A DNA stretch of 29,793 bases, taken from the IMG/VR virus record IMGVR_UViG_3300032173_000024, positions 1 to 29,793 of that record. One strand, written 5' to 3'. The notes below the pieces were generated by a model, which saw nothing but the letters and a program-made list of their open reading frames with translations, had not been told where the DNA came from and ran no database searches. This document shows positions 2,759 to 18,508 of the stretch, piece by piece. The DNA comes from a virus. A program made the translations under genes and the position numbers. The stretch's first letter is position 1, and every line of letters begins with the position of its first letter.

Positions 2759-2759
2759 G

Positions 2760-2769
2760 CCGGTACAAA
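2760..2769 (+). repeat. CCGGTACAAA motif, copy 1
   Basis: This is the first of four copies of an AT-rich asymmetric motif (others at 5707, 10673 and 18371), all on the + strand. Here ten bases match, and the following bases are AA rather than TT. It begins one base after the terminase stop codon and 141 bases before the portal ATG. Possible roles are a repressor site of stoperator type or part of a promoter; neither is proven. Confidence 0.6.
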
Positions 2770-2809
2770 AACCGCCATCCGCCGCGAGCCTCGGGAACCG
2801 CCTATTTGC

Positions 2810-2826
2810 CGCGTCTTGCCGACGCG
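2810..2826 (+). other. Short inverted repeat in terL-portal leader
   Basis: CGCGTC and GACGCG form a 6-bp stem around a 5-base loop. No T-run follows, so a classical terminator is not supported. Eighteen bases further on, 2844-2857 (GCGCCGCGCGGCGC) is a perfect 14-base palindrome that could be a dimeric protein site. In such GC-rich DNA short palindromes also occur by chance. Confidence 0.35.
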
Positions 2827-2864
2827 CCGAGCTGGTGCGACTTGCGCCGCGCGGCGCTCTTCGG

Positions 2865-2894
2865 CTGACCTCGGGCACGGCATGGCGCTACCGT
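2865..2894 (+). promoter_or_regulatory. Candidate promoter of the portal operon
   Basis: CTGACC (2865-2870, four of six bases of TTGACA) is separated by 18 bases from TACCGT (2889-2894), which fits the TAnnnT form of a -10 box seen in GC-rich bacteria. Six bases later is the portal ATG at 2901, with no Shine-Dalgarno sequence between. Transcription starting about seven bases after the -10 would begin at or next to the ATG, giving a leaderless message. The same TACCGT-N6-start arrangement precedes the protease gene. This is inference from sequence. Confidence 0.4.
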
Positions 2895-2900
2895 CGGCGT

Positions 2901-5069
2901 ATGTTCGATGGAATCCGCGCCCGCCGGGCACAGACCAAGGCCCGCAAGGCCGAGAGCACGCGCGCCGCCGAGACCGCCACCGTCGCGCAATTGCTCGCCA
3001 ACCGTCAGCCGCCGAAGCGCGGCACTCAACAGCTCGCCGAGGCCTACAAAATCTCGCCGGCGCTGCGCATGGTCTGCGGGCGCATCGGCTATGCCGTCGC
3101 CTCGACGCCCTTCACACTCGAGCGCGCGGTGACCGGCAAGGGCGGCAAGGTGCTGCACCCGTACGCGCTGCAGCGCGCGAGCTTCGAGCACCGAGAGCGC
3201 ATGGCCGCCACGATGCGCAAGGCCGGCAATCTCGAGCCCGTAGCAGACGAGAACCATCCGCTCTTGCGCCTGCTCTCCAACGGCAACCCGCACCTGCCGG
3301 GCACCACGTGCATCAAGATCGCTCAGCTCCACCTCGACATCCACGGCGAGGCATTCTGGATCTTCGAGCGCGACGGGCTAGGCATGCCCGTCGAGATCTG
3401 GCCGGCGCCGCCGGCATGGTGCGTGTCGATCGCAACGCCCACCGAGCCGTTCTTCCTCTTTCGCTGGCAGGGAAGAGAGCGCCGCGTGCCCGAGGCCGAC
3501 GTGGTCTACTTCCGCGACCCCGACCCGGCCAACCCATACGGCCGCGGCACTGGCATCGCCGAGGCCCTCGGCGACGAGCTCGACACCGACGAGTACGCCT
3601 CCAAGTTTATCAAGAGCTTTTTTTATAACGACGCCATCCCTGCCGCTGTCGTGAGCTTCGATGGCGCCGACGAGAAGCAGGTGATGGCCGCCGAGCAGCG
3701 ATGGCTCGCCAAGTTCCGCGGACACCAGAACGCGCACCGCGTTTCGTTCACGAACAAGAAGATCGACGTCAAGCAGCTGACGCAGTCGTTCGCGTCGAAC
3801 CAGATGACGCAGCTGCGCGAGTACGAGCGCGACATCATCATCCACACCTTCGGCGTGCCGCCCGAGATCTTCGGCATCCTCACGAACAGCAACCGTGCAA
3901 CCATCGACGCCGCCGACTACCTGTTCGCGCGATGGGTGATAGTGCCTCGCCTCGACTTCATCCGCAGCACCCTGCAGCACGCTCTTGTGCCAATGTTCGA
4001 CGAGCGCGCCGTGCTTGGCTTCGTGTCGCCGATCCCCGACGACCGAGAGTTCTGGCTCAAGACGGCGGTAGCGAACCCCGCAGCGCTCTCGCGCGGCGAG
4101 TGGCGCGAGTCGCTCGGCAAGGATTCGCATGGCCCTGTCGACGACGTGTACGTGATGACGCTCGGCGCCATCGAGCGCCCCATCCGCGGCAGCATGCCGA
4201 CGCCGAGCGCACCCGCCACGGCTCCGACGCAAGACGCGCCGCAGGTCGAGACGCCGGACACACCGCCACCCGAGTCGACCGCGCCGGCGAAGGCGAAAGC
4301 CGTGCACAAGGACAAGCTTCGCCCTGGTGACGTAGACGCCATCCTCGAAGCCCTCCGGCCCGAGCGCCTCACCGTCGACATCGACAAGCTGTTCCGAGAC
4401 GAGATCGAGAAGTGGGGCAGCGACGCCCTGGCCGAACTCGGCGTTGACCCAAGCTTCTCGATGCTCAACCCTCTCGTGACCCAGCACCTCGAGAAGCTGT
4501 CGCTTGAGCACCTCGGCGGCTTCGTACAGGAGACGACCAAGCAAGAGCTGCGCGACGCGCTCACCGAAGGCGTGCAGGCTGGCGAGAGTAGCCGTGAACT
4601 CGCCGGCCGCGTCGCGGAGGTCTTCGACGGCGCTGATAGTTGGCGCGCGACCAACATCGCGCGGACCGAGGTGCTTGGCTCGAGCAACTTCGCCACGTTC
4701 ACGGCCTACGGCCAGAGCGGCATCGTCGACGGCAAGCAGTGGGTGGACACGCCGGATGACCGCACGCGTGACACGCATCGAGAGCTCGGCGCGCAGCCGC
4801 CCATCCCGCTCAACGATCCGTTTGTCGTCGATGGGAAGATGGCGATGCACCCGGGCGACTTCGGCGATCCGGCGGAAGATTGCATGTGCCGCTGCACTAC
4901 GACGGCGGTAGTCGGCGGGGAGCCGAAGAGCGCCGAGGCCCGCGCCGCCATCTGGAAGGCCTACGACCGCAAGCTCGTGCCGTGGGAAGACAAGACCATC
5001 GCCGCCTTGCGCAAGGGCTTCTCCGGCCAGCGCAACGACATCATCGCAGCACTGCAACGCCTGGCTTAG
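2901..5069 (+). CDS. Portal protein fused to MuF-type head morphogenesis domain
   Basis: The product is 722 residues against roughly 400-550 for a lone portal. Residues 1 to about 425 are an HK97-type portal (AYKISPALRMVCGRIGYAVA; the DIHGEAFWIFERD region; FGVPPEIFGILTNSNRAT), the dodecameric ring through which DNA passes. Residues about 433-470 are a Pro/Ala/Thr-rich linker. The rest is a Mu gpF-like minor head domain, with IARTEVLGSSNFATF near 587, then W-DTPDDRTRDTHRELG and a CMCRC cluster near 665. ATG 2901 is chosen because the repeated leader ends there; no ribosome site is visible, so it may be leaderless. The reading frame runs without a break through the junction, so the fusion looks genuine. 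Confidence 0.92.
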   Translation: MFDGIRARRAQTKARKAESTRAAETATVAQLLANRQPPKRGTQQLAEAYKISPALRMVCGRIGYAVASTPFTLERAVTGKGGKVLHPYALQRASFEHRERMAATMRKAGNLEPVADENHPLLRLLSNGNPHLPGTTCIKIAQLHLDIHGEAFWIFERDGLGMPVEIWPAPPAWCVSIATPTEPFFLFRWQGRERRVPEADVVYFRDPDPANPYGRGTGIAEALGDELDTDEYASKFIKSFFYNDAIPAAVVSFDGADEKQVMAAEQRWLAKFRGHQNAHRVSFTNKKIDVKQLTQSFASNQMTQLREYERDIIIHTFGVPPEIFGILTNSNRATIDAADYLFARWVIVPRLDFIRSTLQHALVPMFDERAVLGFVSPIPDDREFWLKTAVANPAALSRGEWRESLGKDSHGPVDDVYVMTLGAIERPIRGSMPTPSAPATAPTQDAPQVETPDTPPPESTAPAKAKAVHKDKLRPGDVDAILEALRPERLTVDIDKLFRDEIEKWGSDALAELGVDPSFSMLNPLVTQHLEKLSLEHLGGFVQETTKQELRDALTEGVQAGESSRELAGRVAEVFDGADSWRATNIARTEVLGSSNFATFTAYGQSGIVDGKQWVDTPDDRTRDTHRELGAQPPIPLNDPFVVDGKMAMHPGDFGDPAEDCMCRCTTTAVVGGEPKSAEARAAIWKAYDRKLVPWEDKTIAALRKGFSGQRNDIIAALQRLA

Positions 5070-5086
5070 CCAGCGAGAGGAGACCC

Positions 5087-5701
5087 ATGCGCCCCATTGA
5101 CCAAAACCAAGAGGTCACCGGCCTGTTCATCGAGAACGGCAAGATCTACATCATGTTCAACGGCGTGGCGGTCGGTGCGTTCGCGACCGCGGCCGAGCTC
5201 GGCGCCGGCGTGTGCGCCGCGGCGCTGAGTGGTGACCTCGCAGTCAACGCCGCCGGAGTGGTGACGCTCGCCAATCCGCAGCGCGTGCTCTCGAGCTCGA
5301 AGACCATCAACAAGGACGGCACCGGCGTGGACGGTGCAATCGTCGGAAGCTCCGCAGGTCAGCTCGGCGAGGCGAACGGCGTCACGCTCGTCGCTGCGGT
5401 CGCGAACAAGGTGATCGCTCCGCTCGCCATCCTCGTCAACTACGCCCGCGACACGGCAGCCTATACGGGCGGTGGCAACGTCACGGCTGGCTACGCCGAT
5501 GGCGCGGCAGCCACGGGCCTCGTATCCGCGGCGGCGCTGTTCGGTGCCGCGGCGAGCTCGATCCAGGCACTCGCGCCGCTCTCCGGCGCCGCTCTGGTCA
5601 ACAAGGCGCTGGTGCTGCGCGCTGCCTCGGCCTTCACGCAGCCGGGCACGGCCGCCGGCATCGCGGTCGTCACGACCTACTACCGCCTCATCGACGCCTA
5701 A
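5087..5701 (+). CDS. Unknown virion-type protein between portal and protease
   Basis: The product is 204 residues with a clear GAGAGGAG ribosome site before the ATG. It is rich in Ala, Gly and Val, with an N-terminal strand pattern (TGLFIENGKIYIMFNGVAVG), a SGDLAVNAAGVVTL segment and a C-terminus ending VVTTYYRLIDA, all suggestive of a beta-rich structural protein. It has one cysteine and no hydrophobic anchor long enough to call a membrane protein. It occupies the slot between portal and protease, where head genes are expected, so a minor head or decoration role is plausible. I do not recognise a named family. Confidence 0.75.
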   Translation: MRPIDQNQEVTGLFIENGKIYIMFNGVAVGAFATAAELGAGVCAAALSGDLAVNAAGVVTLANPQRVLSSSKTINKDGTGVDGAIVGSSAGQLGEANGVTLVAAVANKVIAPLAILVNYARDTAAYTGGGNVTAGYADGAAATGLVSAAALFGAAASSIQALAPLSGAALVNKALVLRAASAFTQPGTAAGIAVVTTYYRLIDA

Positions 5702-5706
5702 ACCTT

Positions 5707-5719
5707 CCGGTACAAATTT
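5707..5719 (+). repeat. CCGGTACAAATTT motif, copy 2
   Basis: All 13 bases are identical to copy 3 at 10673. It begins six bases after the stop codon of the upstream gene and 140 bases before the protease GTG. It has the same orientation as all other copies, and its AT-rich core stands out against the surrounding GC-rich DNA. Confidence 0.65.
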
Positions 5720-5834
5720 CACTGACCGCCCGCACGCGAGCGCGAGCCATGATTACGGGCGTTCGCGCGCCACGCCCGGCGTTGCCGCTCGCATCGTTCC
5801 GGCGTTTCGCGTGGTTCGCGGCCGCGCCGTTTCG

Positions 5835-5840
5835 TACCGT
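5835..5840 (+). promoter_or_regulatory. Candidate -10 element of the protease/capsid operon
   Basis: TACCGT is followed by exactly six bases and then the protease GTG, matching the arrangement before the portal gene. The distance from the upstream CCGGTACAAA motif (128 bases) is also nearly the same as there (129). No good -35 box is visible, and there is no Shine-Dalgarno sequence, so a leaderless message is possible. A palindrome CGCGGCCGCG lies at 5817-5826. The 145-base gap from 5702 to 5846 holds no other gene that I can support. Confidence 0.35.
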
Positions 5841-5846
5841 GGCCTG

Positions 5847-6917
5847 GTGAAGCTCAAGCGCTACAGCCTCGACGAGTTCAAGCAGGCCGCCAAGTCCGCG
5901 CCGGCGACCGTTGCCGATGCGGCGATCATGAAGGCCTACGCTTGCGACGAGGTGCGCGCACTCGACGTGCAGCCCGGTCAAGAGGCCGAGGCCAAGGTCT
6001 TCGACTTCGCGATCTCGAGCGAGGTCCCCGACCGTCAGACGGACGCCATCGCCCTCGACGGGTGGAAGCTCGACAACTACAGAAAGAATCCCGTCGTGCT
6101 CTGGGCGCACAACGCCATGGAGCAACGCCCGCCGATCGCCACCTCGCCGGCAGTGTGGCCCGAGGCGTCGAAGCTCCGCGCCAAGGCCGACTTCTCGCAG
6201 ACGTTCGACATCGACCCCTTCGCCCGCATGATCTGCCAGCTCATCGCTCGCAAGGTCATCAACGCGTGCTCGGTCGGCTTCCAGCCGATCGTGTACACGT
6301 TCAACGAGGCGCGTGGCATGTTCGCGATGGACTTCCTCGAGCAAGAGCTGCTCGAGTGGAGCCCGTGCCCGGTGCCAGCCAACCCCGACGCACTCCAGGG
6401 CGCCAAGTCGATGGGCGTCGACACGAAGCCGCTCGTCGAGTGGGCCGAGAAGGTGCTCGACGGCGAGCGCGGCGCTGGCCTGTGGGTGCCCAAGGAGCTC
6501 GCGACCATTGCGCAAGTCGCCAAGGCGCGCGGCATCGCCGCCGGTTCGCCCGTGTCGGTGAGCGTGCCCGCTGCCATCGTCTCGAAGGCCGGCCGCGTGT
6601 TGAGCTCGACCAACGAGCAGGCGTTGCGCGACGCCGTCGCCGCCATCGAATCCGCGTCAGAGTCGATCTCGTCCGTGCTCGACCAGGTCAACCCGGCAGG
6701 CGCCGATCCTGCTGAGCCTGGCGAAGAGCCAGTTGCGGGCAAGGCCGCCGAGTCAACGGTCACCGCATCCGCCACCGCCACCATCGTCGAGCCTACGCCG
6801 CCGAGCGCCGCGGAGATCGCCGCGGTCATCAAGGCCGAGCTTCCCAATCTCATTCGAGAGATCACCAAAGACAGCATCGAGAAAGCCATGCGGAAGGCGC
6901 ATGGCCGCATCGACTAG
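5847..6917 (+). CDS. HK97-family prohead protease with long C-terminal extension
   Basis: The product is 356 residues and processes capsid precursors during head maturation. The core is typical of the family: FAISSEVPDRQTDAIALDGW (about 54-73), then NYRKNPVVLWAHN with catalytic His 88, then CSVGFQP with nucleophile Ser 142. After about residue 190 the protein continues with a charged helical region, a Pro/Ala/Ser/Thr-rich stretch (about 275-320) and a final amphipathic helix (IKAELPNLIREITKDSIEKAMRKA split by its acidic residues). Such an extension may serve as a scaffold; that is inference. GTG 5847 is chosen because the sequence upstream in this frame is only a shadow of the previous gene. 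A GGAGA site for the capsid gene follows the stop. Confidence 0.9.
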   Translation: MKLKRYSLDEFKQAAKSAPATVADAAIMKAYACDEVRALDVQPGQEAEAKVFDFAISSEVPDRQTDAIALDGWKLDNYRKNPVVLWAHNAMEQRPPIATSPAVWPEASKLRAKADFSQTFDIDPFARMICQLIARKVINACSVGFQPIVYTFNEARGMFAMDFLEQELLEWSPCPVPANPDALQGAKSMGVDTKPLVEWAEKVLDGERGAGLWVPKELATIAQVAKARGIAAGSPVSVSVPAAIVSKAGRVLSSTNEQALRDAVAAIESASESISSVLDQVNPAGADPAEPGEEPVAGKAAESTVTASATATIVEPTPPSAAEIAAVIKAELPNLIREITKDSIEKAMRKAHGRID

Positions 6918-6926
6918 GAGACTGCA

Positions 6927-8198
6927 ATGGCCGAAGAGAGCAAGACCAACCCGACCGTCGAGATGTTCCGCAAGGAGATCTTGCCGATCTTGAAGTCCGA
7001 GATCGAGCCCGTCGTGGCCGAGATCGTCGAGCGCCAGCTGCGCAAGTCCATCGAGGTCAAGCCCGCCGGCGGCGCGCAGACCACCATCGGCGACCTGGGC
7101 GCGGGCAAGGCCGCCGACGTGGCGAGCTCCGATGGCATGGACCTTCGCACTCGTCAGCGCAAGTCGGCCCGCTTCCTGCTCTCGCTAGCCGCCTCGGGTG
7201 GTGACCGCAACAAGGCCCTCGACTTCGCCAAGGGCATGAAGGACGAGCACGTCACGAAGGCGCTCGGCGAGTCGACTGGCTCGGCCGGCGGCTTCTTGGT
7301 GCCGCAGCAGATGGGCGAGTTCATCGACTCGCTCGGCGCGCAGGCCATCGTCCGCGGCATCCTCGGCGCGCGCACCGTGCCGATGCCCCTCGGCCAGATC
7401 TCGTTGCCGCGCGGCGACAGCGGCGCAACGATGAACTGGGTCGGCGAGAACACCAACGCCCCGAGCAGCCAGCCGGCGACGGGCCAGGTCGTGATGACCG
7501 CCAAGAAGGCGATGGTCGTCGTGCCCATTAGCAACGACCTGCTCAAGGACGCCGGCGCCCCGGCCCAAGATTGGGTCGAGCGCGAGGCGAGGCGCGCCTA
7601 TGAGCGCGGTGAAGACCTCGCGTTCTTGCGCAGCGTCGGCGGCGAGAACAGCCCGCGTGGAATGTTGAGTCGGGCGCTCGCGGCCAACGTCTTCAACATC
7701 ACCCACGCCGGCGCGACGGCGACGCTCGCAGAGGTCTACGCCGACCTCGGGCGCGTCGTGCAGCGGTTGGCCACGCAGAACATCCCGATGGTCAAGTGCG
7801 GCTTCGCCTTCTCGAAGCGCACCGAGTGGTTCCTCAAAACGCTGCTCAACGCCAACGGCATCCCGGTCTTCGCCGACCAGATGGCGAAGGGCCAGCTGTG
7901 GGGCTTCAATTACGGGTCGACCACCCAGATCCCGAACAACCTCAACACGTCGACCGCCGGCACCAACGACGAGTCGGACATCGAGTTCGGTGACTTCGAG
8001 TCGCTGGTTATCGGCGACACGGGCGAGCTCGAGATCGACGTGGTCAAGGGCGCGGCCTACTACGACAGCACCAGCGGTGCCGTCGTGTCGGGCCTGAGCC
8101 AGGACCAGACCACGCTGGTGCTCAAGAAGCGCATGGACTTCACGTCGCTCTACGACGGCAAGGACATCGCCATCCTCCGCAGCGTCGACTGGCAGTAA
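6927..8198 (+). CDS. Major capsid protein, HK97 fold
   Basis: The product is 423 residues with a GGAGA ribosome site. The first ~110 residues are charged and helical (MFRKEILPILKSEIEPVV, VERQLRKS), as in the scaffold-like delta domain of HK97-type capsid precursors. The shell domain then begins near ALGESTGSAGGFLVPQQ (112-128), a standard entry to this fold. Further family marks are TMNWVGENTNAPSSQ, VVPISNDLLKD, AYERGEDLAFLRS and SPRGML near 233. The C-terminus ends VLKKRMDFTSLYDGKDIAIL. The cleavage site between delta and shell cannot be fixed from sequence. The protease gene directly upstream supports processing. Confidence 0.96.
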   Translation: MAEESKTNPTVEMFRKEILPILKSEIEPVVAEIVERQLRKSIEVKPAGGAQTTIGDLGAGKAADVASSDGMDLRTRQRKSARFLLSLAASGGDRNKALDFAKGMKDEHVTKALGESTGSAGGFLVPQQMGEFIDSLGAQAIVRGILGARTVPMPLGQISLPRGDSGATMNWVGENTNAPSSQPATGQVVMTAKKAMVVVPISNDLLKDAGAPAQDWVEREARRAYERGEDLAFLRSVGGENSPRGMLSRALAANVFNITHAGATATLAEVYADLGRVVQRLATQNIPMVKCGFAFSKRTEWFLKTLLNANGIPVFADQMAKGQLWGFNYGSTTQIPNNLNTSTAGTNDESDIEFGDFESLVIGDTGELEIDVVKGAAYYDSTSGAVVSGLSQDQTTLVLKKRMDFTSLYDGKDIAILRSVDWQ

Positions 8199-8243
8199 TG
8201 TAGACGGCGGCCTAGCGGCTGACCTTTGACAAGAGTTCGTGAC

Positions 8244-8265
8244 GGGCCCGGGGAGACTCGGGCCC
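8244..8265 (+). other. Strong hairpin with GAGA tetraloop after the capsid gene
   Basis: GGGCCCGGG (8244-8252) pairs with CTCGGGCCC (8257-8265) over nine positions, one of them G-U, around a GAGA loop of the stable GNRA class. It lies 45 bases after the capsid stop and ends four bases before the AAGGAGAG ribosome site of the next gene. No T-run follows, so it is more likely an mRNA processing or stabilising element, or a partial attenuator, than a simple terminator. TTGACA at 8226-8231 has no matching -10 box. Confidence 0.5.
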
Positions 8266-8282
8266 ATGCAAGGAGAGCACAG

Positions 8283-8768
8283 ATGAGCATCCGACCCACT
8301 ACCGACATCGGCGGCCACGTCTCGCACGCCTACGCAGGCGCGTCGAGTACCACGGGCGCGCCGGTCCTGATCGTCGCCGCGGCTGCGACCGACAACGTCA
8401 AGCGCACGGGGGCGACCGTCGACCGCGCCACGCACAACATGCCCGAGAGCGCCGTGCTGACCATCGCCGGCCTCTTCACGCTCGGCGACGCCGCGACGTG
8501 CAAGTTTGCCGCCGAGATCCTGGAGTCGGATGACGGCTCGAACTGGGGCTCCGCGGTCGCACTCTTCGCACTGGCTGATGGCCTCGCCGGCACGGGCCCG
8601 GGCGGCGGCGGCAACGTCACGTGCCTCAAGACGCTCGACATGGTCCTCAAGGGCCGCAAGCGCTACTTCCGCGTCGACATCACCTGCGACCTGTCGGCAG
8701 GCAGCGCGGACACGGGACACTACACGGCGCAGTACGTCTTCGGTGGCGGCAGCCCGCTCCCGGTGTAA
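8283..8768 (+). CDS. Probable head decoration or minor virion protein
   Basis: The product is 161 residues. ATG 8283 is chosen because AAGGAGAG lies just upstream; an earlier in-frame TTG at 8226 would translate through the hairpin. The protein is beta-rich and carries AEILESDDGSNWGSAV (78-92), a motif that recurs twice in the large fibre protein encoded at 23109-25253. This suggests a common small beta-sandwich fold used in phage virions. It follows directly after the capsid gene, a usual slot for decoration proteins. No named family is recognised. Confidence 0.7.
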   Translation: MSIRPTTDIGGHVSHAYAGASSTTGAPVLIVAAAATDNVKRTGATVDRATHNMPESAVLTIAGLFTLGDAATCKFAAEILESDDGSNWGSAVALFALADGLAGTGPGGGGNVTCLKTLDMVLKGRKRYFRVDITCDLSAGSADTGHYTAQYVFGGGSPLPV

Positions 8769-8771
8769 GCC

Positions 8772-9032
8772 GTGGCCGAGCTCGTCACCGTCAGGTTCCT
8801 GCACGCCTCGCCGCCCTACAACGGCGGCGAGGAAGCTGGATTCGAGGCACAGGCAGCGCGGCACCTCGTCGAGAGGGGCGTAGCCGCCTACGCCGTGCCC
8901 TTCTCTTCCCCGTCTGTCGTCGTCGATACCGTGGTCGCGGTTCAACCTGACCCGACGGTCGTGACGATCTCCCCGCCGGAGGCGGTTCCTGCTCCGGTTC
9001 CGCAGCCGGCGGGGAAGTCGAAGCGACGCTAG
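8772..9032 (+). CDS. Small head-to-connector region protein
   Basis: The product is 86 residues, starting with GTG four bases after the previous stop, which suggests translational coupling. The first 40 residues (VRFLHASPPYNGGEEAGF, then ARHLVERGVAAY) resemble a family of short proteins that many phages encode between the capsid and connector genes. The remainder is rich in Pro and Val and ends in a basic KSKRR tail. The function of this family is not known to me. The 48 bases after the stop hold no supported feature. Confidence 0.65.
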   Translation: MAELVTVRFLHASPPYNGGEEAGFEAQAARHLVERGVAAYAVPFSSPSVVVDTVVAVQPDPTVVTISPPEAVPAPVPQPAGKSKRR

Positions 9033-9080
9033 TGATGTCAGGCACGATCGTCGCCGCGTCGAAGCGAAAGGCCGACACCG

Positions 9081-9746
9081 ATGGCACTCGCAGCAAACGC
9101 ACTCACGACAATCGCCACCGTCAAGGATGAGCTCGCGGTCACCTCGGCCGCCGATGACAGCTACATCGAGCGACTGATCAACGTCTACTCCGGCATCATC
9201 GAGCAGCTCTGCGACCGCAAGTTCGGCCGCGCCGTCGACTGGACCGAGAAGAAGCCGGCCGAGGGCGCCACGCACCTGGTGCTCGAGCGGACGCCCATCG
9301 AGGGCATCAAGTCGATCACCTACTACGGCGCGACCATCGACCCGAGCGTTTACGAGATCGACGACGCCACGGCCGGCCTCGTGCGCTTCATCAACTCGAC
9401 CTACGAGGCCAACCTCGGCGCACGCAACACCACGGTCGACTCGCTGCCCGGAACCTCGCGGCTCTTCTACCTCGTGACCTACACGGGCGGCTACGTGCTG
9501 CCCAAGGACGAAGCAGCGGCGGTAGGCGAGACGCCAGCAGTCGTGCGCACGCTGCCCTACGACCTCGAGCAGGCCTGCATCCTCGGCGCCGTCTCCGCCT
9601 ACCGCAAGCGCGGCCGAGACCGCACGGTGCAGTCCGAGAGCTTGCTCGGCTACAGCGTGACGTTCGCGCGCGGCGGCGCCGGCGGCGATTCTCTCCCGAT
9701 CGAGGCGATGGCAATCCTGCAGAGCTACCAGCGAGTCATCGTATGA
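9081..9746 (+). CDS. Head-tail connector protein (gp6-like)
   Basis: The product is 221 residues. The N-terminal helical pattern LTTIATVKDELAVTS, followed by DDSYIERLINVYSGIIEQLCDRKF, is the classic start of phage head-tail adaptor proteins (HK97 gp6 or SPP1 gp15 type). The middle has the usual beta insertion (RTPIEGIKSITYYG, YEIDDATAGLVRF), and the C-terminus returns to helices (LEQACILGAVSAYRKRGRD). It forms the ring below the portal. The stop overlaps the next ATG (ATGA), and the gene lies in the expected order capsid, adaptor, stopper, neck. Confidence 0.87.
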   Translation: MALAANALTTIATVKDELAVTSAADDSYIERLINVYSGIIEQLCDRKFGRAVDWTEKKPAEGATHLVLERTPIEGIKSITYYGATIDPSVYEIDDATAGLVRFINSTYEANLGARNTTVDSLPGTSRLFYLVTYTGGYVLPKDEAAAVGETPAVVRTLPYDLEQACILGAVSAYRKRGRDRTVQSESLLGYSVTFARGGAGGDSLPIEAMAILQSYQRVIV

Positions 9747-10063
9747 GCCTCGGCGGCATGCTCGACGCCACGGTGACCTTCTCGCCGCCGGCGTCCGTGA
9801 GTGCGGCTGGCGACCCTACGTTTGGAGCGCAGACAACGGCACGCGCGCGCGTGGAGTACGGCACGAAGTTCATCTACGGCCGCGACAACACCGAGCTGCA
9901 GTGCGAGGCGGTCATCGCGAGCGACGTCGAGATCCCGATGGGCTCGCGCATCTGGCTCCCCGGCACCAACCCGTCCGACAACAACGCGGCCAAGCGCCCG
10001 CTGACGGTCAAGCGCGCGTCGTCGCCTGGCGGCACCTTAACCGTTTACGAGACCTACCTGTGA
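9743..10063 (+). CDS. Head closure (stopper) protein
   Basis: The product is 106 residues, starting in an ATGA overlap with the connector gene and ending in a GTGA overlap with the next. It is a beta-rich protein (DATVTFSPPASVSAAGDPTFG, then ARARVEYGTKFIYGRDN and RIWLPGTNPSDNNAAKRP), with the length and strand pattern of SPP1 gp16-like stoppers that close the portal channel after packaging. Sequence signatures in this family are weak, so size, composition and gene order carry much of the call. Confidence 0.72.
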   Translation: MSLGGMLDATVTFSPPASVSAAGDPTFGAQTTARARVEYGTKFIYGRDNTELQCEAVIASDVEIPMGSRIWLPGTNPSDNNAAKRPLTVKRASSPGGTLTVYETYL

Positions 10064-10605: not shown

Positions 10606-10608
10606 GCC

Positions 10609-11016
10609 ATGGCCACCGCACCCGATTCCGACGTTGTCACGCAGCTCGTAGCCGCGGGCATCGGTCTCGTCTCCGGTACAAATTTGTGGCGCGGTCCAGA
10701 GCGCGCCGCCGGCACCGGCGTGCCTGCCAAGTCCGTCTTCGTGCTCGCGTCAGGTGGCTACCCACCACGGCCATTTCTCGGCCCTTCCAGCACCGACATG
10801 CGCCGCTCGACCGTGCAAATCACCGTGCGCTCGGACGCGCAGGACTTCGACGGCGGCCAGACGCTCGTGCGCGCCGTGCGGAATGCGATCCACAAGGCTG
10901 CCGTCGCGGGCTACGTTGATATTCGCGTAAGGGAATCCGAGCCCAACTACCTCGGGCAAGACGAGGCGGCGCGGCACCTGTGGACGGTGAACGTCGAGAT
11001 GGAGCACGAGCAATGA
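10609..11016 (+). CDS. Tail terminator protein
   Basis: The product is 135 residues, resembling the minor-capsid/tail-terminator families (N-terminal helix DVVTQLVAAGIGLVSG; STVQITVRSDAQDFDGGQTLVRAVRNAIH; C-terminal LWTVNVEMEHEQ strand). It caps the tail tube and joins it to the head. The ATG lies three bases after the previous stop, and the end overlaps the next gene (ATGA). Codons 22-26 contain the repeated CCGGTACAAATTT motif and are T- or A-ending apart from the last, which is odd in this GC-rich gene and points to selection on the DNA itself. Confidence 0.75.
   Translation: MATAPDSDVVTQLVAAGIGLVSGTNLWRGPERAAGTGVPAKSVFVLASGGYPPRPFLGPSSTDMRRSTVQITVRSDAQDFDGGQTLVRAVRNAIHKAAVAGYVDIRVRESEPNYLGQDEAARHLWTVNVEMEHEQ
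10673..10685 (+). repeat. CCGGTACAAATTT motif, copy 3 (inside a gene)
   Basis: It is identical over 13 bases to copy 2, in the same orientation, 64 bases into the tail terminator gene, where it encodes part of SGTNL. It is the only copy inside coding sequence. The codons GGT, ACA, AAT and TTG are atypical for this genome, which argues for a signal held at DNA level rather than protein level. Confidence 0.6.
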
Positions 11017-11225
11017 GCGAGCCGAAGCACGTGACGATGACCGATACGGCCCGCATCGAGCGGCCCGACGGCTCAACCATCACCTACCCCAAGGGCGCGC
11101 TTGCGCTAGTCGACAGCGAGCTCGCCGATGCGTGGACCGCCGATGGCCAGGCCGTCGAGTGGCCGCCCACCGAGAAGCCGATCGAGACGCCATTTACCAT
11201 CACCTACCCCACGCCAAAGGAGTAG
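11013..11225 (+). CDS. Small unknown protein in the tail operon
   Basis: The product is 70 residues, starting at an ATG that overlaps the previous stop (ATGA). It contains the short pattern TARIERPDGSTITYPKGALALVDSELADAW, broken here by its charged residues, and ends in a Pro/Thr-rich tail. The layout resembles the small beta-rich accessory proteins found beside tail genes. No named family is recognised. The coupling on its 5' side and an AAAGGAG ribosome site for the next gene at its 3' end support it as a real gene. Confidence 0.65.
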   Translation: MSEPKHVTMTDTARIERPDGSTITYPKGALALVDSELADAWTADGQAVEWPPTEKPIETPFTITYPTPKE

Positions 11226-11228
11226 CCC

Positions 11229-11594
11229 ATGCCTCGCACCGTGATCCCCCTGCAGGAGGCCGGACCCAACGGCGGCGGCATCGATAGCGTCACGATGACC
11301 GCTGGCGACAGCGGCAACGGCATGTACTTCGACAACACGAGCGGCATGGTCGACCTCCTGGTGCTCAACACGAACGCCGCCCCCAAGGCCGTCGTCGTCA
11401 AGGGCGTCACCGACGAGAACGGGCGCACCGGCGACAAAACCCTCACCTGCCCGGCAACGACCGGCAAGTCTTCGGGCGGCCCCTACCCGATCAAGCTCTT
11501 CAACCAACTCGGTGCGGCCGACCTCGGCAAGACGTTCGTCGACATCGCGGACGCCACCAACGTCACGATCGCGGCCATCAAGCGCGCTCGGTAG
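11229..11594 (+). CDS. Unknown beta-rich virion protein
   Basis: The product is 121 residues with an AAAGGAG ribosome site. The strand-rich sequence includes GNGMYFDNTSGMVDLLVLNT, a VVKGVTDENGRTGDK turn and a C-terminus FVDIADATNVTIAAIKR, all consistent with a small Ig-like or jelly-roll structural domain. It sits directly before the tail tube gene. A tail decoration or tube-associated role is possible. No named family is recognised. Confidence 0.65.
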   Translation: MPRTVIPLQEAGPNGGGIDSVTMTAGDSGNGMYFDNTSGMVDLLVLNTNAAPKAVVVKGVTDENGRTGDKTLTCPATTGKSSGGPYPIKLFNQLGAADLGKTFVDIADATNVTIAAIKRAR

Positions 11595-11606
11595 CGGAGG
11601 ACTCCC

Positions 11607-12023
11607 ATGGCAAAGGTAACTGGTCGTCTCGGGTTCGCAGCCATCTCGACGGACGGCGGCACGGTCTACGCCAACATCGGCAGCTCGAAGACGGTCAAGC
11701 TCGGCAGCAAGCGCGCGACCATCAAGCGCACGACGCACGACTCAGGCGACAACGAAGAGTACGGCGCCGGCCGCAAGGACGCGACGTTGAGCGTCGACTG
11801 CGCCTACGACGAAGCCGACACGGGGCAGGCCGCCTGCTGGACGTCCTACGAGGCCGGCACGACGGTGTGGTTCCGGTTCCGCCCCGACACCGGCTCGGGA
11901 AAGAAGCAGTACCGCCAGCAGGGCATCATCACCGACATGTCGGACGATTCGCCGAACGACGATGACAACGCGCTGAGCATCCAGATCCAGCTCAGCGGCA
12001 CGCGCACCACCGACACCCAGTAA
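11607..12023 (+). CDS. Major tail tube protein
   Basis: The product is 138 residues with a GGAGGA ribosome site. Its features fit the tube proteins of siphophages: VKLGSKRATIKRTTHDSGD near the N-terminus, then LSVDCAYDEADTGQ, then VWFRFRPDTGSGKKQYRQQG, with the acidic loop SDDSPNDDDNALSIQIQLSG at the end. The fold is a beta-sandwich that stacks as hexamers to make the tube. It lies just before the two-frame chaperone and the tape measure, which is the conserved order. Confidence 0.82.
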   Translation: MAKVTGRLGFAAISTDGGTVYANIGSSKTVKLGSKRATIKRTTHDSGDNEEYGAGRKDATLSVDCAYDEADTGQAACWTSYEAGTTVWFRFRPDTGSGKKQYRQQGIITDMSDDSPNDDDNALSIQIQLSGTRTTDTQ

Positions 12024-12050
12024 GCGGCTCGGGCCGCGAGGTAGCACACC

Positions 12051-12506
12051 ATGGCGAATGCTTGGCGCGGCGAAGCGACCATCCACATCGACGGCAAGGA
12101 CCGCACGCTGGCGTTCACCCAGAACGACATCGCGGACCTCGAAGATACTCTTGGCGGGTGCTCTGTCGTCGGCATCCTGCGCAAGGGTGAGGCGGATTCG
12201 ATCTCGTTCCTACGCGCCGCCATCGCGGTTGGCTTGCGTCGCGAGGTCCGGCTGACCCCGCGTCAGGTCGGTACCTTGCTGGGCAAGGAGTACGGCAAGA
12301 CCTCGGTCTTCGTGGCCGCGGTAATGAAGGCGATCGTGCTCGCGCTCCAGGGGCCCGGCGTCGCCGAGCGGTTCAGGCAGATCGAAGACGACGAGCAAGA
12401 CGAAGCGAGCGCCGATGACGACGAGCAGGAGGCTGACGATGCCGACCACCCTCCTCTGGCGGGGGTTGGGACTGGGAGTCCCGCCTCCGCACCGCAGCCC
12501 GAATAG
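12051..12506 (+). CDS. Tail assembly chaperone, first frame (G-like)
   Basis: The zero-frame product is 151 residues. The N-terminal half (DGKDRTLAFTQNDIADLEDTLGG) resembles the tail chaperones of GTA-like and related phages, which bind the tape measure while the tube forms around it. Residues about 104-135 are strongly acidic (EDDEQDEASADDDEQEADD). In this gene type a fraction of ribosomes slips by -1 near the end to add a second domain. Here the -1 frame is open from 12437 and contains a G5 run and hairpin at 12461-12482, which would give a 236-residue fusion. A GAGGT ribosome site precedes the ATG. Confidence 0.8.
   Translation: MANAWRGEATIHIDGKDRTLAFTQNDIADLEDTLGGCSVVGILRKGEADSISFLRAAIAVGLRREVRLTPRQVGTLLGKEYGKTSVFVAAVMKAIVLALQGPGVAERFRQIEDDEQDEASADDDEQEADDADHPPLAGVGTGSPASAPQPE
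12461..12482 (+). promoter_or_regulatory. Candidate -1 ribosomal frameshift signal
   Basis: GGGGGTT (12461-12467) lets a glycine tRNA on the zero-frame codon 12462-12464 slip back one base onto another GGG. It is followed at once by GGGACT and AGTCCC, a perfect 6-bp stem around GGG (12468-12482). Slippage here joins the first chaperone frame to the second. The spacing from slip site to stem is shorter than usual, and the A-site codon does not re-pair well, so the exact slip site is not certain. Confidence 0.5.
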
Positions 12507-12532
12507 GGCTCGCATTCGACCGCTTCTGGGCG

Positions 12533-12760
12533 ATGACGCCCTACGAGTTCTCCCTCTACCTGCAGGGCCGAGGCGAGGCAGCCGACGATGTGCTGCGCTC
12601 GAACGCACGGATGGCGGCTTGGATCATGACGCCGCACTACAAGAAGGCCATCAACCCCGCTCACCTCATCGGCAAGTCGCGCTCCTTCGAGGGCATGACG
12701 CGAGAAGAGATCCGCGAGTACTACCGCAAGAAACGAGCGCAGGCGCGCGCGCGAAGGTGA
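12533..12760 (+). CDS. Tail assembly chaperone, second frame (T-like)
   Basis: The open frame in fact extends upstream to 12437, and the part before the only ATG (12533) reads WDWESRLRTAARIGLAFDRFWA, continuing into MTPYEFSLYL. The FDRFW-MTPYEF block is the recognisable core of a phage tail-chaperone family. Since the block starts before the ATG, and no ribosome site precedes that ATG, translation most likely arrives by -1 frameshift from the previous gene, relative to which this frame is exactly -1. The C-terminus is basic (YYRKKRAQARARR). Independent initiation at 12533 cannot be excluded. Confidence 0.75.
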   Translation: MTPYEFSLYLQGRGEAADDVLRSNARMAAWIMTPHYKKAINPAHLIGKSRSFEGMTREEIREYYRKKRAQARARR

Positions 12761-12763
12761 CGC

Positions 12764-15076
12764 ATGTCTACTAGCGCGGGCGATCTCGACGTCACCCTCA
12801 GTGCCATCACCGCGGAGTTCGATGCCGCGATGAAGGGCGCGATGGACGCCATGGAGAAGTTCGGCGTCTCATCGACGGAGGTGAGCACCACGCTTGCCGG
12901 TCTAGGCGCGTCGGCAGAGAAGAGCGCCACCTCGCTCGAGACGCTGTTTCGTGGACTCGGCGACACGACGGCGCATGAGAAGTTCCGTGCCGAGGTAGAC
13001 GCCGAGGTCGCGTCAATGAAGGCCGCCGAAGACGCCGGCAAGGCCGCCGGGGACGCCATCCGCAATCAAGCGTCCGGGCTCACGTCGACATCGGAGGAAC
13101 ACAAGACACTCACCGAGCGCTTGAAGGATTATCGCTCGGAAGAGGTCAAGGCGGGGAGAGAGGCGCGCTTCTTCGCCAACGAACTATCGGAGCTCACGGG
13201 CATGAGCTCGGGCACGGCCGGGGCCCTAGCCAAGATTGGCGTCGCGATGACTGAGGGACCGTTCGGCGTCGGCGTCGAGCTGGCCAAGCTCGCGGTGGGA
13301 AAGCTCGCCGAGCACATCACCGAAGCCATCGCGGAGGCAGCGAAGCTCGACAAGCAGAAGTTCGACAACATCGCCAACGCTCTCACGAAGCTCAGGGATG
13401 GGGCTCAGAGCGCCAAGGACAAGTTCTCGGCGATGCTCGGCATGGATGTCGAGGGGATGGGACTGCAAAGAGCCTACGACTCGGCGAGGAGCTCGCTCGA
13501 TGCCTTCATGAGCGACCACGCCGAATTGGCCGAGATACCACGAGAGCAGCTTGAGGCGTTCTCGGAGAACGCCGTTGGCACCGTGTCGACCTGGGGCTAC
13601 ATCTCGTCGGCGCAGGCCGCGGCGTTCATCGAGATGACGGACAAGACCAATGAGGCGAGCAAGGCGCTCGACGACTATCGCAGCACGCAGGCTGCGATAG
13701 CCAAGCAAAAGGCGTGGGAAAACCAGATCAAGGAGACAGAGGAGTACAACACCAAGCTCAAAGAGACCCGTGCTCTGATCAAGGGCGCCCACGAAGAGAT
13801 CGCGAAGAAGGCAAAGACTGCTGACGCCTTCAACTTCTCCGGTGAGTCCGGCAAGACGCCGATGAACGTCATGAGCGACACGAGCATCGACGAGATGACC
13901 CACCGCTACGTCAGCGCGGACTCGGAAAAGGCGCAGTCGGAGGCGATGGACGAGTACGGACGCGTGAGCCTCGCGGCGTCAAAGGCATCACAGAAGGCAA
14001 GTGATGACATCGACAAGGCTGCCGCACAACTCGGCAATAGCGTCCTGTCGTCCATGGGAGACGCCGGCGACATGATCAACGCGGCCATGCAGGGCGCATC
14101 AGCCGGCCCGATTGGCGCCGCCGTCGCGGCTGTTTTGGCGCTGCTCATGAAGGCGCCCGCGTTTGGTGACATGGTGCAGATGATCAACGACATCGTTGGC
14201 GAGCTCGTCATGGCTCTGAACCCAGTGCTCGAAGCGCTCAAGCCGCTTCTCGGCATAGCCGCGGGCCTCGTCTCTTTGGTGATCGACCTGCTCGAGCCGG
14301 CGCTACAGGCGATCGCGGTTGTGATTCAGTACATCGCCAATGCCATCGGATCGGTGGTCAATACGGTCCTCGATATCGTGGCCGACGTTCTCGATTGGGT
14401 CCCTGGAGCCGGAAAGGCAGCGAAGAAGGTCCGCGCCAAGAAGATGAATGTCGATTGGGATGCCGATTGGAGCATGAACGATCGACAGAAGGTGCCCGAT
14501 ACCTCGGGTGCGGATAGGATCAAGAAAGAGCATGACGCCGTCTTCAAGAGCATCGAAGACGAGATGAAGCTCGTTGCTGCAGGCATGGCCGACCACAGCG
14601 AGGGCGAAAGCGTCATCAAGTCGGCCAAGCGAGCGGCGGTGCTCTCTGGCGATGCAGCATTTCAGGAGCAGATCAACTCGTTGACCAAGCAGCTCGAGGC
14701 GATGCTGCCGGCCGATGTCGTCAAGGCCCCAAAGGACCTCGCTGACAACCTCAATGAGGCTGGTGACGCCGTGGCCGATGTCGCCGAGAGCCTGTCCAAC
14801 GTCCCGAGCGGCTACAAGGTGGCGCTCGCGCGCTTCAACGCGACCGACTTCGGCCAGATGACTCCGGCGCTGGCTGGCGCGACGGCGGGCGGCGGCTCGA
14901 CGGTGATCGACCAAGCGCCACGCATCGAGGTGCACAACATGACGGTGCAGGCGCCCACGGCCGAGGTCGCCGCGGCCGTCGTCGAGACGCTCAAGCGCGA
15001 CAACGTCATCCGCACGGGCTCGAACCTCACCACGACCTCACCGTACGTTGGCGGCAGGAAGACGCAGGAGCGCTGA
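12764..15076 (+). CDS. Tail tape measure protein
   Basis: The product is 770 residues, by far the longest in the tail block and directly after the chaperones, as expected for the protein that sets tail length. It is alpha-helical and charged, with many Lys/Glu heptad-like stretches. Residues about 440-545 are strongly hydrophobic, with several membrane-like segments (IGAAVAAVLALLM, LLGIAAGLVSLVIDLL, AIAVVIQYIANAIG), as is usual for tape measures that enter the host envelope. At about 0.15 nm per residue the tail would be near 115 nm. An AAGGTGA sequence precedes the ATG, and the stop overlaps the next ATG by one base. Confidence 0.93.
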   Translation: MSTSAGDLDVTLSAITAEFDAAMKGAMDAMEKFGVSSTEVSTTLAGLGASAEKSATSLETLFRGLGDTTAHEKFRAEVDAEVASMKAAEDAGKAAGDAIRNQASGLTSTSEEHKTLTERLKDYRSEEVKAGREARFFANELSELTGMSSGTAGALAKIGVAMTEGPFGVGVELAKLAVGKLAEHITEAIAEAAKLDKQKFDNIANALTKLRDGAQSAKDKFSAMLGMDVEGMGLQRAYDSARSSLDAFMSDHAELAEIPREQLEAFSENAVGTVSTWGYISSAQAAAFIEMTDKTNEASKALDDYRSTQAAIAKQKAWENQIKETEEYNTKLKETRALIKGAHEEIAKKAKTADAFNFSGESGKTPMNVMSDTSIDEMTHRYVSADSEKAQSEAMDEYGRVSLAASKASQKASDDIDKAAAQLGNSVLSSMGDAGDMINAAMQGASAGPIGAAVAAVLALLMKAPAFGDMVQMINDIVGELVMALNPVLEALKPLLGIAAGLVSLVIDLLEPALQAIAVVIQYIANAIGSVVNTVLDIVADVLDWVPGAGKAAKKVRAKKMNVDWDADWSMNDRQKVPDTSGADRIKKEHDAVFKSIEDEMKLVAAGMADHSEGESVIKSAKRAAVLSGDAAFQEQINSLTKQLEAMLPADVVKAPKDLADNLNEAGDAVADVAESLSNVPSGYKVALARFNATDFGQMTPALAGATAGGGSTVIDQAPRIEVHNMTVQAPTAEVAAAVVETLKRDNVIRTGSNLTTTSPYVGGRKTQER

Positions 15077-16653
15077 TGGCCTTCCTTCAAATCGACGGCA
15101 TTACGATCCCAGTTGCAGACAGCCACGCGAAGCAGGTCTACGAAGAGATCGGCGGGCGCTCGCGCGCGTTCAGCGGTGCCGCGCTGTCGGGCGTGCGCGC
15201 GGTCAGGCGCGGATGGGATGTCGTGACGACGCCGATGCCCGAAACTGAGGCCGAGGCGCTAGCGTCCATACTGCAAGCGAGCGGCGTCCACTTCCCGTTA
15301 ACCGCGAACGCCAACAGCTCGTCAGGATACATCGCCCCGACACCAGCGAACGTCAACCACCTACCTGGATTCAGCCCGTACGATCTGTTGTCCAGCGGGT
15401 GGTACGCCAGGGTGAGCGACGTTCCTTTTGGTGAGTACCTGGGCAACAAGTCGCTGCGGCTCAACTATCCGACGACGAATCTGCTGAGTGCCGAGACGGC
15501 ATCGTTCAACACCACGATCGGTAGCGCCTACTCGACATGGGGCGCTGTCCTTTCTCGTGACGGGAACGTGTCGCTCGATACCGGCTCAGGCGCGCTCAAA
15601 ATCGCGTACAAGAGTTCGGGCAACGCGTTCATCGACACCGTGATCTTGCCGAGCACCATCACCACGGCAGGATCCTACGTCGGTAGCGTATATCTCAGGG
15701 CCGAGTCCGGCACGCCAACGATCACCGTGCGCATCAGTGACGGTACGCATCTGTCGGCAGACGTTGTGGTCACGCTGTCGTCGACACGCTGGACCTACAT
15801 TTGCCCGCCGCTCGTTACCACCACTGCCGGACTGACCGCTGGCATCTATATTCGGGAACCATCAATAAACTCTGGCGTTACCATCTACGTCGACCGTGCG
15901 ATGATCCAGGCAGCAGCAGGGGCGCCGACGATCTGGACCGCTGGAGGTTCTTCGATCGCGACTACGGGCCGCCTGCAGCTCGTCGACTCGACGCACAATC
16001 CATTCGCTGGATGGTCGGGCGACTGGGCGGTCAATGTCTGGTTTCGCCCAGACAAGATGCCAACGAGCTATCGCCAGTTTCTACTCTATGGCGGCGCCAC
16101 GTTCTCGATCGGGATCTCGGCAGCGGGGACGGTCAACCTCGTCATCGGCATCATGGATCTTCCGGTCGCGGGAGTGTTCGCGGTTAATCAGGCATGGCAC
16201 ATGCTGACGCTGGCCCACTCACCGGTGCTTGCAGACGGCGGCGTGATCACCGACCTGTATGTAGACGGGGTTTTGATCGGGAGCACCTCTACGTCTTCGG
16301 TGATCTCCTTCCCTTTGAGCGGCCTCACGACGCTTGACGTGGGATCGACTGGCGGGGCCACAGTCGGCGGCTACACGCCAGACGTGACCACGTTCACCGG
16401 GCCGATTGGGCCGGTGACCTTCCTGCGATGCCGACCCCACGCGTCGACAGTGGCCAAGATGTATTCGTCAGGTGCCGGTGCTATGCTCGGGCTGTGGCCG
16501 AAGCACAGGGTCACGGGCGACATCATCAGCGGAAGGGCGGCGGTCGATGCGTTCGTTCAGGTCAAGGGCTCTGATCCTTCCAGCTTTGTTGACAACTCTG
16601 GCGTGTGGCAGTCGTCCGGCCGAGTCCTCAACTTCTCCATCACCGAGATCTGA
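15076..16653 (+). CDS. Distal tail (Dit-like) protein with carbohydrate-binding insertions
   Basis: The product is 525 residues. Residues 1-95 and the last ~25 (SSGRVLNFSITEI) look like the two halves of a Dit-type hub protein that joins tube to tip. Between them are a jelly-roll segment like a carbohydrate-binding module (about 134-290: NLLSAETASFN; YVGSVYLRAESGTPTITVRI; VDRAMIQAAAGAPTIWTAGG) and a concanavalin/LamG-like segment (about 305-455: WAVNVWFRPDKM; WHMLTLAHSP; LYVDGVLIGS). Such insertions make an 'evolved' Dit that binds surface sugar. The position after the tape measure supports the role. Domain borders are estimates. Confidence 0.72.
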   Translation: MAFLQIDGITIPVADSHAKQVYEEIGGRSRAFSGAALSGVRAVRRGWDVVTTPMPETEAEALASILQASGVHFPLTANANSSSGYIAPTPANVNHLPGFSPYDLLSSGWYARVSDVPFGEYLGNKSLRLNYPTTNLLSAETASFNTTIGSAYSTWGAVLSRDGNVSLDTGSGALKIAYKSSGNAFIDTVILPSTITTAGSYVGSVYLRAESGTPTITVRISDGTHLSADVVVTLSSTRWTYICPPLVTTTAGLTAGIYIREPSINSGVTIYVDRAMIQAAAGAPTIWTAGGSSIATTGRLQLVDSTHNPFAGWSGDWAVNVWFRPDKMPTSYRQFLLYGGATFSIGISAAGTVNLVIGIMDLPVAGVFAVNQAWHMLTLAHSPVLADGGVITDLYVDGVLIGSTSTSSVISFPLSGLTTLDVGSTGGATVGGYTPDVTTFTGPIGPVTFLRCRPHASTVAKMYSSGAGAMLGLWPKHRVTGDIISGRAAVDAFVQVKGSDPSSFVDNSGVWQSSGRVLNFSITEI

Positions 16654-16654
16654 C

Positions 16655-18370
16655 GTGCGGACACTCACGGCGCAAGAGTCCGCACTGCTCGCGCTCGGCG
16701 CGTGGTCGACGCATGTCAGGGTCGAGATCGACCGCGATGGCGCCGGCACCTACCAGGACCTGACCAACCTCGTCGGCTTCGACTGGCTCGTGTCCGCCGA
16801 GCTCCGCGAGAACGTCGACGACCCGGTCGCGTCCTCGACGGTGACGCTCGAGCGCGAGATGCAGCCGCTTGGCGGCGTCTGGTCGCTCTCTCCGTTCGTG
16901 CGCGCCTCGCCGCTCAACATTGTTGGCGGCGTCTACACGCCGATGATCGACATCGGCCGGCGCCTCAAGATCTCGACGGCGATGATGCCTCTGATGATGA
17001 GCCCGAGCGCTGCCGACTGGCGCCTCGTCTTCGACGGCTACATCGACTCGCTCGACATGGGCGGCGAGTCGCTGAAACTCGAGTGCAGAGATCTCGGTGC
17101 CAGGCTGCAGGACGCCTTCATTGAGACGGATGACGTCTACGGATCCGACGCAGGCACGAGCGTCGAGGGTCAGATGCAGGCGATCATCGACGCGACCATC
17201 GGCACCAGCGTGGTCACGCTTTACACCCCGTCAAGCCCCGGGTGGAACGTCCACAAGTGGATGCAGGAACGGACGTTCGTCGGCGATGCCGTGCGAAAAC
17301 TCGCGCAGCAAATCGGGTGGGACGCCCGCTACAAGTGGGACTCCGGCGCCGGCGCCTTTCATTACACGTTCTGGACGCCAGACCGCGCGAAGACGACCCC
17401 CGACCTCACGCTCGGGAGCTCTCAGTACGTGGCGTTGCCACGTGTCGGGCTCGCGATCTCCGGGATCCGAAACGCCATCACGGTGCAGTACACCGCCCGT
17501 TCTCCGGTGGGAGAAGGAAGGGCGACCACAACCGATTCCACGAGCATCACACGATATCGCCGCCGGCCGATGATTGTCGGCGAGGCCTCGACGAGCAACA
17601 TCGACTCGTCGACCGAGGCAACCGCCTTCTCGAACGCGATGCTGTCTGACCTGAAGGACCCGGTCATCGAGCAGACTGCCGAGACGCCCTACATCTACAA
17701 CGTTGAGATCGGCGACCTCGTGCGCTTCTCGGCCAACGGCACGCACTTCGACGTCGACACCGACCTTGCGATCACCACCATCAACCACTCGTTGACCAAG
17801 GACAGCGCGAAGACAACGCTCGGGCTGCGCGGCAAGCCGAGCGGAGGATGGGATCGGTGGCTAGCTCTCGACATTCGCACCGGCATCTCCACTCGTAAAT
17901 TCGCCAGCGCCAAGGGAAGCAACACGTTGATCGACGCCCCAGCGGTGGTCACCAGCGGGACCTGGGTGCTCGGATTCGACACGGCCATCATCGACGAGGC
18001 TGGCCTGGTCGACGCCACGAACAAGGCGATCAAGATCGTCGAGACTGGCGTGTACGACGTGACGTGCCACTACCGGTGGCGCGCCGGTCAGGCCTCAGGC
18101 AAGACCGCTTCGTACGTGCACTATGTCTATGCGAATGGCCAGAACCTCGAGCTGGGACGAGTGGAGTATCCGAACATGGGTGCGAACCAGTACCCATGCG
18201 ATGGTGGCGCTCAGAACTTCTTCGACTTCACCTGGCGCGGAATCTTGTTCGGAGGCGATTCGATCCAGGCGAAGATCGGCGTGACGTGGTCACCAGCAGC
18301 GCTGAACGCATGGACGTTCGCCTTTGACGGCACGGTGAACTCGTTCCTGTCGATCAATCGCGTCAGGTAA
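16655..18370 (+). CDS. Tail hub/tip protein with C1q-like C-terminal domain
   Basis: The product is 571 residues. GTG 16655 is chosen because it follows the previous stop by one base; the longer open frame upstream is a shadow of the Dit-like gene. Residues up to ~400 carry hub-like features (RLKISTAMMPLM; WRLVFDGYIDSLDMGGESL; CRDLGARLQDAFIE; WNVHKWMQERTFVGDAVRKLAQQIGW), resembling the tail-hub (gp27/Tal N-terminal) group. Residues about 404-571 form a separate beta domain (GVYDVTCHYRWRAG; SYVHYVYANGQNLELGRV; ending NSFLSINRVR) of C1q/TNF jelly-roll type, often a trimeric receptor-binding tip. It is the last gene before a 138-base leader. Confidence 0.75.
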   Translation: MRTLTAQESALLALGAWSTHVRVEIDRDGAGTYQDLTNLVGFDWLVSAELRENVDDPVASSTVTLEREMQPLGGVWSLSPFVRASPLNIVGGVYTPMIDIGRRLKISTAMMPLMMSPSAADWRLVFDGYIDSLDMGGESLKLECRDLGARLQDAFIETDDVYGSDAGTSVEGQMQAIIDATIGTSVVTLYTPSSPGWNVHKWMQERTFVGDAVRKLAQQIGWDARYKWDSGAGAFHYTFWTPDRAKTTPDLTLGSSQYVALPRVGLAISGIRNAITVQYTARSPVGEGRATTTDSTSITRYRRRPMIVGEASTSNIDSSTEATAFSNAMLSDLKDPVIEQTAETPYIYNVEIGDLVRFSANGTHFDVDTDLAITTINHSLTKDSAKTTLGLRGKPSGGWDRWLALDIRTGISTRKFASAKGSNTLIDAPAVVTSGTWVLGFDTAIIDEAGLVDATNKAIKIVETGVYDVTCHYRWRAGQASGKTASYVHYVYANGQNLELGRVEYPNMGANQYPCDGGAQNFFDFTWRGILFGGDSIQAKIGVTWSPAALNAWTFAFDGTVNSFLSINRVR

Positions 18371-18382
18371 CCGGTACAAATT
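18371..18382 (+). repeat. CCGGTACAAATT motif, copy 4
   Basis: Twelve bases are identical to copies 2 and 3. It starts at the base immediately after the stop codon of the tail hub gene and 138 bases before the next GTG. A block CCCGCCATCC shortly downstream partly matches CCGCCATCC after copy 1, so the likeness between these leaders extends beyond the motif. Confidence 0.65.
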
Positions 18383-18418
18383 CAGAGCCCGCCATCCCCG
18401 CATCGCACGGCCTGATTG

Positions 18419-18437
18419 CGGCCCCTCCCGGGGGCCG
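18419..18437 (+). other. GC-rich hairpin in leader of the exported-protein cassette
   Basis: CGGCCCC (18419-18425) and GGGGCCG (18431-18437) form a 7-bp stem around five bases. Only a short TTT follows, so a terminator is weakly supported. Downstream CTGACC (18452-18457) could be a -35 box, but the sequence 18 bases later is a poor -10. The 138-base gap (18371-18508) ends with a strong AGGAGGT ribosome site. Confidence 0.4.
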
Positions 18438-18508
18438 AGCGCACTTTGCTACTGACCTCCGGCGTACGCGCGTGCCTGATGGACCTGCTGACACCCAGGA
18501 GGTCCCCC

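Follow-up and report, generated by a model that had tools for sequence, protein, structure and literature searches.

What is the role of a short word that recurs four times, always in the same orientation, along the virion operon of a temperate phage? The window we analyzed is a viral contig of 29.8 kb and 66% G+C. Its virion operon occupies the + strand (~1.25–27.2 kb), is closely packed, and encodes the small and large terminase subunits, portal, protease, an HK97-type capsid protein, connectors, tail proteins, an amidase, and a holin. We consider the phage temperate because a tyrosine integrase and a tRNA-Leu-like attP candidate are present. Based on the analyses below, the four copies are probably phage-specific switch sites for late genes, most likely promoter elements.

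The repeated word and its surroundings

An initial annotation of this DNA placed four copies of the word at 2760, 5707, 10673, and 18371, exclusively on the + strand, and reported that three of them begin 1, 5, and 0 bases after a stop codon. We recovered the same positions, strand, and distances (Table 1). The 10-mer CCGGTACAAA is common to all four copies and extends to CCGGTACAAATT in three (5707, 10673, and 18371), an exact 12-mer for which dinucleotide shuffles give an expectation of 0. No other dispersed word in the window is as strongly over-represented as this 12-mer, which lies well outside simulations, with log10 scores of −13.2 (order-2 Markov) and −12.0 (order-3 Markov) against −8.0 and −8.4, respectively, for the most extreme word among 100 Markov simulations. 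With an order-5 model fitted to this sequence itself, ~17% of simulations contained some A/T-rich triple 12-mer, a weaker test because such a model partly regenerates the repeats present in its training sequence. The placement of the copies is likewise non-random under the gene calls on which these values depend: three of the four fall in the 2.9% of the operon that is non-coding (P ~1e-4), and three lie no more than 5 nt after a stop (P ~2e-6).

The gene gaps that hold these copies had been described as short, yet at 145, 142, and 138 bp they are the three longest in the operon, followed by gaps of 84 and 48 bp. The distance from motif start to the following called start codon is nearly constant (141, 140, and 138 nt, the choice of protease start being uncertain). 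Conservation is confined to the 10–13 bp of the motif and ends at its edges, with no longer homology detected between the gaps, whose pairwise alignments did not rise above shuffles. Searches of the sites and gaps returned no sigma-70 promoters, intrinsic terminators, or shared −35/−10 element, no Rfam family, and no conserved or stable RNA fold (z-scores −1.8 to 0.3). The one in-gene copy reads TCC GGT ACA AAT TTG in frame, and among 8429 4-codon windows those of this copy come 16th and 24th in order of rarity, in agreement with an earlier remark that it imposes unusual codons. No copies were found beyond copy 4 (18.4–29.8 kb) or near the int module.

Table 1. Positions of the repeated words, gene gaps, and genes discussed in the text (window coordinates unless a locus is named)
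Feature	Position	Strand	Remark
Terminase large subunit gene (terL)	1250..2758	+	phrog_38, E 1e-95
Gap of 142 bp	2759..2900	+	headed by copy 1
Motif copy 1, CCGGTACAAA	2760..2769	+	1 nt past terL stop; head of terL-portal gap
Portal protein gene	2901..5069	+	C-terminal head-morphogenesis domain
Gap of 145 bp	5702..5846	+	headed by copy 2
Motif copy 2, CCGGTACAAATTT	5707..5719	+	5 nt past stop of gene 5087-5701; head of pre-protease gap
Head maturation (prohead) protease gene	5847..6917	+	start codon uncertain
HK97-type major capsid protein gene	6927..8198	+	
Tail-terminator / tail-completion-like protein gene	10609..11016	+	contains copy 3
Motif copy 3, CCGGTACAAATTT	10673..10685	+	within tail-terminator-like gene
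Tail protein gene	16655..18370	+	phrog_1887; 5' of copy 4
Gap of 138 bp	18371..18508	+	headed by copy 4
Motif copy 4, CCGGTACAAATT	18371..18382	+	0 nt past stop of gene 16655-18370
Tyrosine integrase gene	27321..28640	−	
CTCCCTAGCAT, exact copies in the Pseudacidovorax prophage (L103)	12606, 13992, 15516, 18697, 19584	+	
Word sites of the Rhizorhabdus prophage (L117)	L117 11731, 11836, 12299, 15226, 18897; L372 759 and 6745		
Copies in contigs G028/G030	L080 303 and 7963 (both on the strand given); also L078/L079	−	

Several further features of the window were recorded. A small protein encoded upstream of the terminase (467-748, +) shows weak ribbon-helix-helix (CopG) similarity (E 0.46) and a HicB-like family match (E 0.008), making it a possible DNA-binding regulator. 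The 84-bp gap 3' of the capsid gene (8199-8282) lacks the motif and contains a perfect hairpin without a T-run (GGGCCCG-GGGAGACT-CGGGCCC), which is possibly an mRNA-stabilizing 3' element of the capsid message. Within gene 23109-25253, a 48-nt direct repeat occurs in five imperfect copies at spacings of 78 and 201 nt (24175-24780), and the product is a repeat-containing virion protein.

Parallel layouts in two bacterial prophages

We searched viral, phage, and bacterial-genome collections and found no close relative carrying the motif. Relatives identified through the major capsid, portal, and TerL proteins were all distant, and none held the motif at a comparable place; the best TerL matches were ~55% identical and had no other gene in common with the window phage. 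Scanning viral contigs with three extended forms of the motif gave single coding matches at about chance level, and in the literature the exact word was found only in one unrelated paper. Two near-identical, A+T-richer viral contigs (G028 and G030) hold CCGGTACAAATT twice each, along with many same-strand near copies. These lack homology to the window and were rejected as relatives; their repeats are possibly peptide repeats in coding sequence.

Dispersed words were then scanned for in 195 loci of at least 10 kb, mostly TerL relatives, and after reading the contexts we picked two prophages; their link to the window is one of layout rather than homology. Two other candidates from the scan were set aside, one whose repeat resembles a ribosome-binding site (L135) and one whose repeat lies within dispersed inverted repeats (L181). 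The two chosen prophages are distantly related (TerL 39% identical) and show the same site layout with different words, each in a single orientation and each with conservation that again ends at the motif edges.

The prophage of Pseudacidovorax intermedius has its own late-operon word, CTCCCTAGCAT, which contains TAGCAT, a match to a TAnnnT −10. Five of the seven exact copies in the 5.5-Mb genome lie in the late operon of the prophage, all on the + strand, and a one-mismatch copy lies ~2 kb upstream of terL. The portal stop codon falls within one copy, another begins 5 nt past a stop, and the site at 19584 is inside a gene. With one mismatch allowed, the CI-like repressor region of this prophage holds no copy; allowing two gives one match (L375:4131). 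In the Rhizorhabdus histidinilytica prophage the late-operon word is TGACGGCGGTAA; counted as GACGGCGGTAAY, it occurs 8 times in a 5.5-Mb genome, with an 11-kb stretch of the late operon holding 6, all +, and a near copy further on (L372:6745). Four sites here lie 31–33 nt before the next start codon, namely those of the portal, the protease, a virion gene, and the tape measure. No copy was found, even at two mismatches, in 19.9 kb covering the integrase, recT, and replication genes. Three of the parallel sites (12299 and 18897 in Rhizorhabdus, 18697 in Pseudacidovorax) come directly after a hairpin that resembles a terminator and has a T-run. Neither prophage yielded a Sigma70_r4_2 match.

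How the sites may act

A DNA-level regulatory site is well supported, since the word is asymmetric, keeps one orientation, sits in gene gaps, and belongs to a temperate phage; to this extent the annotated reading of stoperator-like or promoter-linked sites stands. A stoperator in the strict sense is not demonstrated, with only four copies and none near int, and the alternative named alongside them, a late promoter, fits better. Tentatively, and with somewhat less than even confidence, we take the copies to be sites of one phage-specific DNA-binding factor serving the late operon, most likely late promoter elements. We infer that transcription initiates at the sites and that they are bound by a phage-encoded or phage-modified factor. 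Such elements would be of the extended −10 or factor-dependent kind, transcription would re-start from them where each sub-operon begins (portal; protease and capsid; tail), and the reader protein, needing no conserved −35 partner, would recognize ~10–13 bp in one orientation. We prefer this to stoperators because in the parallel prophages the sites are nearly confined to late genes, uniformly oriented, and in some cases placed behind terminators or at a fixed distance from start codons.

Enrichment beyond that of any simulation, confinement to the + strand, and placement at the heads of the three longest gaps support a promoter, and the 31–33-nt spacing to start codons in the Rhizorhabdus prophage is what might be expected of a −10 element. 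Against it, TACAAA would make a weak −10 for sigma-70 and there is no conserved −35; leaders are ~125 nt here versus ~30 nt in Rhizorhabdus; the window sites have no preceding terminator; the in-gene copies (10673 here, 19584 in Pseudacidovorax) are odd; and no recognizable sigma factor was found in the two parallel prophages. Known phages offer partial precedents. Phages 7-11 and phiEco32 have low-copy ~12-bp promoter repeats, few and well conserved, that lie at structural genes and are −10-like without a −35 (PMC4331800), and the window word is similarly a short repeated element that heads late units and lacks a −35. Phages of that type have an ECF-like sigma factor of their own, whereas none was recognized among the window proteins searched, and the long motifs of 7-11 cluster in one region, unlike the window copies. 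The Drexlerviridae T1, TLS, and Stevie carry intergenic repeats of 21–22 bp whose function is an open question (PMC11447400, PMC4319613). These too are asymmetric, mostly intergenic, oriented along transcription, and at a roughly fixed distance before start codons (~76 nt in TLS versus ~140 here), but they number 16–21 copies in virulent phages and are unrelated in sequence, the T1/TLS consensus aaATAGCACnnnTTGnTAAAA (PMC11447400) not being matched by CCGGTACAAATT.

Other explanations account for parts of this pattern. In mycobacteriophage L5, the phage repressor binds asymmetric, monomer-type stoperators and blocks late-operon elongation in the lysogen, and repressors of this type occupy early-promoter operators as well. 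We regard this arrangement as rather unlikely here, even though the layout of cluster A stoperators is alike (PMC9283540; PMC6550527), with asymmetric sites on the 13-bp scale in one orientation relative to transcription, in the gene gaps of temperate phages, as the window sites are beside stop codons; an in-gene copy would also be unproblematic for a road-block. The sequences are unrelated, however, and L5 has 20–30 copies genome-wide, including the early operator, whereas here there are just four, limited to a virion operon of ~26 kb (the window being a fragment without early region or repressor) and absent from the remaining 18.4–29.8 kb. An immunity repressor acting by road-block is further disfavored because it should also occupy the early promoter, and the repressor, integrase, and early regions searched in the two prophages were free of sites. 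In addition, a road-block would be redundant where a terminator already stands immediately upstream, as at several of the parallel sites.

A late transcription activator following the logic of P2 Ogr or Mu C, with a host-polymerase promoter inside each ~140-bp gap, would explain the nearly equal site-to-start distances, and gaps of 138–145 bp can fit a promoter and leader. We nonetheless consider it quite unlikely, as the gaps share no −35/−10 element and in the parallel prophages the site lies too close to the start codon for a promoter to fit between them. An RNA-level element at cistron ends, at which an endonuclease or a protein would act on the polycistronic late mRNA, would suit a single orientation directly after stop codons, and AAAUU forms a local A/U-rich patch in a G+C-rich message; but copy 1 lacks the AUU, both parallel prophages have G+C-rich words, and the RNA searches described above found neither fold nor family, leaving this idea improbable. 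Chance or coding repeats are the least credible source of the pattern. Copy 3 does lie in coding sequence, and many exact 15-mer matches in viral contigs reflect chance, but the observed score was never approached in simulations and three of the four copies sit 0–5 nt past stops.

Temperate-phage late operons are usually seen as one promoter combined with antitermination. Phage-specific repeated sites that head sub-operons, are nearly confined to the late operon, and differ in word from phage to phage would represent an extra layer of late control. It is conceivable, if doubtful, that many temperate siphophages use a private 10–12-bp "late code", in which a few same-orientation sites head virion-gene units, the word is specific to each phage, and the phage factor that reads it is not recognizable as a sigma factor; the window phage and the Pseudacidovorax and Rhizorhabdus prophages would then be three independent cases. 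The two named bacterial prophages would provide cultivable systems in which such late control could be tested.

The integration module

The 3' part of a tRNA-Leu(TAA), from the anticodon loop CTTAAAA to CCCGGGCACCA, lies at 27440-27521 (+) and is a likely attP core. As a pointer to the host this element was uninformative, with no match in 21 + 347 + 331 genomes or in viral contigs. It falls inside the 3' end of the integrase frame (ORF 27321-28640, −), past the catalytic domain, so integration would alter how the integrase ends. Flanking the attP candidate at 27381 and 27588 is a direct repeat, CTGTGCCTCAGTTGTG, whose two copies may be arm-type sites.
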